Shown piece by piece: positions 427 to 1,828 of a DNA stretch of 64,000 nucleotides. The notes beneath the pieces are model-generated. The model was not told the origin of the DNA. It made no database searches and worked only from the letters and a program-made list of their open reading frames with translations. The first letter of the stretch is position 1; the number at the start of each line of letters is the position of its first letter. Made by a program: the position numbers and the translations under genes. Origin of the DNA: Ignavibacterium sp. GTDB lineage: Bacteria; Bacteroidota; Ignavibacteria; Ignavibacteriales; Ignavibacteriaceae. Where the stretch lies: NCBI GenBank assembly GCA_032027145.1, contig JAVSMP010000001.1, forward strand, positions 3,353,116-3,417,115. The letters run 5' to 3'.

Positions 427-527
427 TATGTTACTCCTTTATTGATTGTTAATATTAAGTGTTATTTATTATCACATTAAGTACATCATCATTGAATTAA
501 ATAGTTCGTGAAAATTATTTCAGAATC

Positions 528-1137
528 AACTCACAGTTATCTAATGCATTATCCTTCAATTATTTTACTATAACAAAAAAAATATCATTATAAAAAAGAT
601 CTAACTTATATTTTGAACAATTAACTTCTTCCTTTGTCAATACCAACTCACCCTTCTTCCCTCTCTTAAAAAGAGAGGGACTGCTTCCCCTTCTCTTCCT
701 AAGAGAAGGGGCGAGGGGTTGAGTTAAGTAAACAACTCACAGTTATCTAATGCATTATCCTTCAATTATTTTACTATAACAAAAAAAATATCATTATAAA
801 AAAGATCTAACTTATATTTTGAACAATTAACTTCTTCCTTTGTCAATACCAACTCACCCTTCTTCCCTCTCTTAAAAAGAGAGGGACTGCTTCCCCTTCT
901 CTTCCTAAGAGAAGGGGCGAGGGGTTGAGTTAAGTAAACAACTCACAGTTATCTAATGCATTATCCTTCAATTATTTTACTATAACAAAAAAAATATCAT
1001 TATAAAAAAGATCTAACTTATATTTTGAACAATTAACTTCTTCCTTTGTCAATACCAACTCACCCTTCTTCCCTCTCTTAAAAAGAGAGGGACTGCTTCC
1101 CCTTCTCTTCCTAAGAGAAGGGGCGAGGGGTTGAGTT
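528..1137. repeat. Three tandem 206-bp units, each ending in an 81-bp double hairpin
   Basis: Units begin at 528, 734 and 940 (period exactly 206). Each is an AT-rich spacer, about 125 bp, followed by an 81-bp GC-richer element at 645-725, 851-931 and 1057-1137. The element has outer inverted arms (AACTCAcCC ... GGgTTGAGTT) enclosing two perfect stem-loops: CCCTCTCTT/AAGAGAGGG with a 3-base loop and CCCCTTCTCTT/AAGAGAAGGGG with a 3-base loop. By eye the copies are identical, so the amplification is recent. The last element supplies the C-terminal codons and stop of the DUF559 gene. The structure recalls REP/MITE-type dispersed palindromes. I do not know a named family for it. Confidence 0.9.
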
Positions 1138-1521
1138 AAATAATAAATTATTCTTTATCTCTTTTATTACGTTGGATAAATCATTCAGAACTTCTTCATT
1201 CTTAAATCTGATAACTCTAATCCCAAGATTGTTTATAATATTACTTCTTATAATATCCTCAGTTATTCTGTATTTATGATACTCACCATCAAGTTCAATA
1301 ATTAATCTTTCTTCGTGGCAGTAAAAATCTGCTACAAAAAAAGAATCCTTCCCGGTTAAATCATAAAACAGTGGATGTTGTCTCAAAAATTTTCTTCCTT
1401 CCATATTTCTATTACGAAGAAATTTCCACATTATTTGTTCAGCTTCAGTAGATTTTTTTCTTAACTCTCTGCAAACAAATTTTGCTACTTCTCTAAGTTG
1501 TCCTTTTTTGTTAAGACTCAT
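1111..1521 (-). CDS. DUF559 domain endonuclease-like protein embedded in the hairpin repeats
   Basis: A 136-residue protein of the DUF559 family, a Vsr-like branch of the PD-(D/E)XK nuclease fold. The N-terminal helix carries the STEAEQIMWKFLRNR signature. The core has ADFYC followed by LIIELDGEYH, which would give the acidic D...E-x-D metal site, and then an RVIRF strand. The start ATG at 1521 follows AGGATAAATTA, a good ribosome site, and lies only 20 bases after a hairpin element (1542-1622). The last eight codons and the stop lie inside another hairpin element (1057-1137). The gene thus replaces one spacer of the repeat array. Substrate and role are unknown. A link to mobility or maintenance of the repeats is my inference. 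Confidence 0.85.
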   Translation of the reverse strand: MSLNKKGQLREVAKFVCRELRKKSTEAEQIMWKFLRNRNMEGRKFLRQHPLFYDLTGKDSFFVADFYCHEERLIIELDGEYHKYRITEDIIRSNIINNLGIRVIRFKNEEVLNDLSNVIKEIKNNLLFNSTPRPFS

Positions 1522-1541
1522 TTAATTTATCCTAAATTATC

Positions 1542-1828
1542 AACTCACCCTTCCTCCCTCTCTTAAAAAGAGAGGGACTGCTTCCCCTTCTCTTCCTAAG
1601 AGAAGGGGCGAGGGGTTGAGTTAAGTAAACAACTCACAGTTATCTAATGCATTATCCTTCAATTATTTTACTATAACAAAAAAAATATCATTATAAAAAA
1701 GATCTAACTTATATTTTGAACAATTAACTTCTTCCTTTGTCAATACCAACTCACCCTTCTTCCCTCTCTTAAAAAGAGAGGGACTGCTTCCCCTTCTCTT
1801 AGGAAGAGAAGGGGCGAGGGGTTGAGTT
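1542..1828. repeat. Fourth and fifth 81-bp double hairpins with one spacer between
   Basis: Elements at 1542-1622 and 1748-1828 enclose a spacer (1623-1747) matching those at 726-850 and 932-1056. The first carries one substitution relative to the left-hand copies (CTTCCTCCC for CTTCTTCCC). The second has the 3-base loop of the longer stem as AGG instead of CCT, that is, inverted, while the stem is unchanged. The array ends three bases before the stop codon of the RND pump gene, so the last hairpin could also act as its transcription terminator. Confidence 0.88.

Follow-up and report, generated by a model that had tools for sequence, protein, structure and literature searches.

To our knowledge, the palindrome-mobilizing enzymes known so far are HUH/Y1 enzymes, and the Y1_Tnp family contains the known RAYT-REP pairs; DUF559 proteins are common in prokaryotic genomes and mostly have no assigned role. 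The DUF559 units described here are like REP/RAYT systems in that a nuclease gene lies between its own palindromes and many copies without the gene occur in the genome. A parallel of this kind was drawn in the initial annotation, and it holds as far as the nuclease bounded by palindromes is concerned; it fails for the enzyme, which is a PD-(D/E)XK Vsr-like fold with no HUH/Y1 domain and thus not a RAYT, and for the RAYT-like Y1 genes of the phylum, which have different palindromes. The DUF559 units differ further in their homopyrimidine/homopurine stems (of the CCCTCTCC type) and in often lying in frame in essential genes. The EDxHD homing endonuclease I-Bth0305I, encoded in an intron and equipped with an additional DNA-binding region (PMC3943268), has a catalytic domain related to DUF559 by sequence and fold, whereas DUF559 units have palindromes only and no intron or intein; a DUF559 gene of Thermosynechococcus has been termed an EDxHD homing endonuclease (PMC9403480). 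Rickettsia palindromic elements (RPEs) are in-frame palindromes in unrelated metabolic genes (PMC10969869) and in this respect match the present palindromes, but they are about 150 bp long with no described nuclease gene, and the DUF559 unit carries one. Miniature elements (MITEs) and their parent insertion sequences comprise gene-bearing and gene-less copies with common terminal inverted repeats, as do the units in one genome (G166, see below); in contrast, the DUF559 unit has no DDE or HUH transposase, and no target-site duplication was seen at the one well-resolved junction. Vsr/VSP repair nucleases (Escherichia coli Vsr and Caulobacter VsrA) belong to the same nuclease superfamily, VsrA being itself a DUF559 protein, proposed as a mismatch-repair endonuclease acting with a cytosine methyltransferase (PMC12907096). 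We found no link between DUF559 and palindromes in the literature searched; most subscription papers lay outside this search, and novelty is thus not proven.

An 81-bp double-hairpin element occurs five times in the window (the whole 64,000-nt stretch of DNA analyzed), and the DUF559 gene lies between the third and the fourth copy, with a complete, directly repeated element on either side (Table 1). These copies were described in the initial annotation and are borne out at the positions listed, as is its placement of the gene where one spacer of about 125 bp would be, with the last codons (..NSTPRPFS) and the stop inside an element. Its description of the locus as 206-bp tandem units is right for the array and not for the gene-bearing unit, which measures 485 bp; E4 and E5, past the gene, keep the array spacing. 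Folded as single-stranded DNA, a single element reaches -25.8 kcal/mol, compared with -11.75 +/- 2.44 for shuffled sequences (z = -5.8; 0 of 200 as good), and no Rfam family was matched anywhere in the window. In E5 the second hairpin carries its loop in the opposite orientation (TTAGGAA in place of TTCCTAA), which accounts for its three base differences and makes the 25-mer of this hairpin (1790-1814) the exact reverse complement of its counterpart in E1 to E4, an outcome that would be expected if a cruciform had been resolved or re-copied.

Table 1. Features of the DUF559 locus (positions within the window)
Feature	Position	Strand	Remarks
E1, 81-bp double hairpin	645..725		Outer arms AACTCACCC / GGGTTGAGTT; hairpins 658-680 and 687-711
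E2	851..931		Same sequence as E1
E3	1057..1137		Same sequence as E1; contains last codons and stop of DUF559 gene
E4	1542..1622		One base differs from E1; about 20 bp upstream of DUF559 start codon
E5	1748..1828		Second hairpin loop inverted relative to E1-E4
Tandem array, 206-bp unit (element plus about 125-bp spacer)	527..1143		3.0 copies, period 206, 99% match; array absent from sister species G336
DUF559 (PF04480) Vsr-like PD-(D/E)XK nuclease, 136 aa	1111..1521	minus	E = 1.2e-28; E28, D65, E76, D78 and H82 present

The only Pfam matches of the focal protein are DUF559 and a weak MTES_1575; no HUH/Y1 transposase domain was matched. Its AlphaFold model (pLDDT 89) and sequence place it closest, among PDB entries, to 3hrl (NGO0050, endonuclease-like) and 3r3p (the catalytic domain of I-Bth0305I), the latter matching DUF559 by hmmsearch (E = 1.6e-6) and ranking second best by fold (Foldseek E = 1.5e-3, probability 1.00). 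Across 143 DUF559 domains, Glu28, Asp65 and Glu76 are present in all 143, Asp78 in 97.9% and His82 in 98.6%. The focal gene is under constraint relative to its sister-species copy (dN/dS = 0.15), as are copies lying within LeuS and RecG (dN/dS = 0.08-0.17, several of these at high dS). Judged from these sequence comparisons, the nuclease is maintained in functional form, including the copies embedded in host proteins. We rejected a role as a defense system on the ground that PADLOC matched no known anti-phage defense family, and a phage origin on the ground that DUF559 matched only 2 of 50,697 phage records; 38 plasmid records matched.

We evaluated the association between DUF559 and palindromes on two independent sets of loci, comprising 63 domains from genomes of the phylum (84 of the 198 genomes sampled have PF04480 at E <= 1e-12) and 80 from a collection scan that spans Bacteroidota, Cyanobacteria, Chloroflexota, Pseudomonadota, Nitrospirota, Planctomycetota, Patescibacteria and Methanophagales archaea. 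Hairpins were counted if perfect, with a stem of at least 8, a loop of 3-10 and a GC fraction of at least 0.5, and if located no more than 250 bp from the gene. They stand on both sides of DUF559 at 29/63 loci of the phylum (46%) and 35/80 loci from many phyla (44%), as compared with 2.2% (n = 325) and 0.5% (n = 376), respectively, of the other open reading frames (ORFs) in these regions and with 0.1-0.3% of randomly chosen positions. For a hairpin on at least one side the values are 70% and 61% for DUF559 and 17% and 11% for other ORFs; this strict rule finds no hairpin within 250 bp at 30-39% of DUF559 loci. Pure pyrimidine/purine stems on both sides are found at 26/63 and 29/80 DUF559 loci (0.3% and 0% in the comparison sets). 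The flanks are also matched to each other: left and right are alike at 56 of 138 DUF559 loci (30 direct, 20 inverted and 6 both), versus 0 of 138 when flanks are paired between different loci. The association is specific to DUF559, for PF13366 (GxxExxY), another small and abundant PD-(D/E)XK family, has hairpins on both sides at 0/29 loci and on one side at 1/29, and we therefore rejected a general clustering of nucleases by repeats. Y1_Tnp genes, examined as a control, have hairpins on both sides at 3/20 loci and on any side at 8/20, with palindromes of a different sequence from those of DUF559.

Genome-wide palindrome counts were obtained by searching for the pattern CCYTCYCN{3,12}GRGARGG, with the reversed pattern as control. 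DUF559-positive genomes have a median of 7.5 and a mean of 13.0 (reversed control 1.8), and DUF559-negative genomes a median of 2 and a mean of 3.9 (reversed control 2.3); the difference is significant (Mann-Whitney p = 6e-11, on raw genome counts that ignore kinship) and runs in the same direction in 12 of the 18 families that hold both kinds of genome, and 13 DUF559-negative genomes still carry at least 10 palindromes. Two outcomes had been named in advance as evidence against a link, namely elements with no enrichment near DUF559 genes and relatives whose DUF559 genes lack flanking elements; both were examined, and the palindromes are enriched and the relatives' genes flanked, in the proportions given above.

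Many DUF559 domains are parts of larger proteins. Open frames of more than 230 aa contain 58 of the 143 domains, some of these 58 not being real fusions, and the Pfam-confirmed hosts include LeuRS, ValRS, MetH, RecG, HisF, HisA, RibE, HrpA and an amino-acid kinase (ArgB-like). An intein or a group I/II intron was rejected as an account of these insertions, since no Hint splicing domain was found in the 9 host proteins scanned, no Rfam intron at 7 in-frame loci or in the window, and the host reading frames are continuous. The palindromes themselves are translated as linkers (for example, SPLPLGEGxGEG), and the presence of many copies inside reading frames led us to reject transcription termination as their main role. 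In Pedobacter, DUF559 precedes HisF as an N-terminal fusion at seven loci, with two more in relatives; these fusions recur and look inherited, and some copies may therefore be domesticated. The editing-domain loop of LeuS, which takes DUF559 units in some genomes, contains other short repeat-like peptides in others (SEAKQSHQI, SEMLKLVQHDETERHSE and SEAKESAKSENDGHAELVEAP); in-frame repeats in general may therefore be able to land in this loop.

Each end of the unit consists of a palindrome whose homopyrimidine/homopurine stem lies within a shorter inverted arm (ctcaccc .. gggtgag), and forms with and without the gene can have the same ends. On one contig of G166, a gene-less double hairpin (at 362630) and a DUF559-bearing unit (at 366222) both have gaccccaccccccggccccctcccctccgggagagggggagcc at the start and nearly its inverse at the end, and another genome (G033) has many gene-less hairpin pairs about 113 bp apart. 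The site in G298 orthologous to the G166 unit at 366222 is intergenic and holds a different gene-less hairpin element (AACTAGTTCCCCTCCTCAGATGA..), which resembles the ends of the DUF559 unit at a further locus (L269). We left this intergenic case out as an empty site because the closer relatives G298 and G305 have other sequence there.

Both filled and empty states were found at orthologous sites, a comparison that had been suggested in the initial annotation. A helicase gene (AddA-like by our reading) holds a unit in G166 and is empty in G298, G305 and G255, whose flanks are 90/89%, 90/87% and 88/87% identical to those of G166; relative to G298 the net insertion is 495 bp, or 165 codons, in frame, and at its junction (one case) the unit end GGTGAGGC resembles the ancestral GGGGAGGC. 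For LeuS in one family of the phylum sample (f24), the unit is present at 3 of 30 loci, and the remaining 27 hold just 25-48 residues at the site. At the focal locus, the sister species G336 (86% DNA identity) has the order element, gene, element, spacer, element, and G330 (82%) has neither the gene nor the elements between the same flanking genes. Because the site in G336 is filled and has no array, the gene and its elements are older than the tandem array.

We consider it probable that DUF559 and its flanking palindromes together make up a small mobile element belonging to a widespread family, in which the nuclease most likely cuts its own palindromes, with repair then spreading them. The Vsr-like PD-(D/E)XK nuclease, the sole gene of the unit, would cut the palindromes, recognized as a cruciform, in hairpin form or by sequence, both in the element and in gene-less copies, and repair would then place copies of the unit or of its palindromes elsewhere; the gene-less double hairpins would be non-autonomous derivatives. 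Since the palindromes usually keep an open frame and encode linkers rich in Pro and Gly (SPLPLGEGxGEG type), a unit could settle in frame in the loops of essential proteins unspliced. The arrival of the focal unit would predate divergence from the sister species, and later recombination between identical elements would have amplified the 206-bp spacer units. The pairing seen at the focal locus looks like a selfish element that recurs in many bacterial phyla and in some archaea. The earlier proposal of a nuclease tied to its own palindromes, possibly mobile and belonging to no family with a known name, is supported, and we infer from this pattern both palindrome cleavage by DUF559 and movement driven by it. 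More tentatively, with somewhat less confidence than we place in the mobile unit itself, we suggest that these units form a nuclease-only class of element, in which a Vsr-like PD-(D/E)XK enzyme without a transposase mobilizes the gene-bearing and many gene-less units and enters essential genes in frame and unspliced by means of ends that code for flexible linkers.

A different enzyme might instead move the palindromes in trans (a Y1/RAYT-like or other transposase), DUF559 being a passenger captured between two copies. This would fit the focal gene, lying as it does between two complete direct-repeat elements, and the finding that genomes with both DUF559 and Y1_Tnp are richest in palindromes (median excess 8, as compared with 2 for DUF559 without Y1; p = 0.007, kinship ignored). 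The surplus where the two genes co-occur may reflect cooperation or shared ancestry, and a helper transposase is therefore possible. However, the median excess is 0 both in genomes with Y1 and no DUF559 (n = 61) and in those with neither, and the palindromes that flank the Y1 genes differ in sequence from those of DUF559; for these two reasons we rejected RAYT as the sole mover. Two further points count against capture: a comparable nuclease, PF13366, was not taken up (0/29), and DUF559 remains catalytically intact. On balance we regard the passenger explanation as unlikely.

Less likely still, DUF559 could be a Vsr-like or cruciform-resolving nuclease kept by the cell, found near palindromes through acting on them or through shared permissive sites, with no mobility driven by the enzyme. 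The proposal of the Caulobacter protein VsrA as a VSP repair nuclease (PMC12907096), the apparent conservation of the HisF fusions across Pedobacter and the acceptance of other repeat-like inserts by the LeuS loop are in keeping with such a role, but presence and absence at orthologous sites, multiple copies within a genome, a large number of unrelated host genes and an occurrence in only 84/198 genomes of the phylum argue against it. The least probable of the accounts that we weighed holds that the palindromes are older than the gene and that homologous recombination among scattered copies shuffles DUF559 cassettes. Unequal recombination best explains the focal tandem array, and direct-repeat flanks occur at 36/138 loci (30 direct and 6 both); recombination by itself, however, explains neither why DUF559 in particular is bounded nor the inverted-repeat flanks at 26/138 loci. 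If the mobile-unit interpretation is true, DUF559 would account for the CCCTCTCC..GGAGAGGG repeats, which are abundant, and for inserts of the PLPxGEG type in bacterial proteins, another nuclease fold would join the palindrome-mobilizing enzymes, leuS, valS, metH and recG would contain unspliced mobile genes, and the origin of in-frame palindromes would become directly testable.

The focal genome, a single 3.67-Mb contig, holds further copies. A second array (199109-200184) has six double-hairpin elements in units of about 199 bp and no DUF559, and weaker copies of the element lie at 1873675, 3340280 and 399911. The second complete DUF559 domain of this genome (320509-320826) is inserted in frame in a type I restriction hsdR frame of 1231 aa, with the hairpin CCTCTCCCtatGGGAGAGG directly after it and a similar hairpin, CCTCTCCCactGGGAGAGG, about 200 bp upstream. 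About 60 residues ahead of this insertion, the same hsdR gene (L053:1140-4835) contains a gene-less palindrome, read as PKSSPTGRGQGEGVL, and one gene has therefore taken two units. A third, partial DUF559-like nuclease domain (3636580-3636756) lies N-terminal to a RecQ-like helicase.
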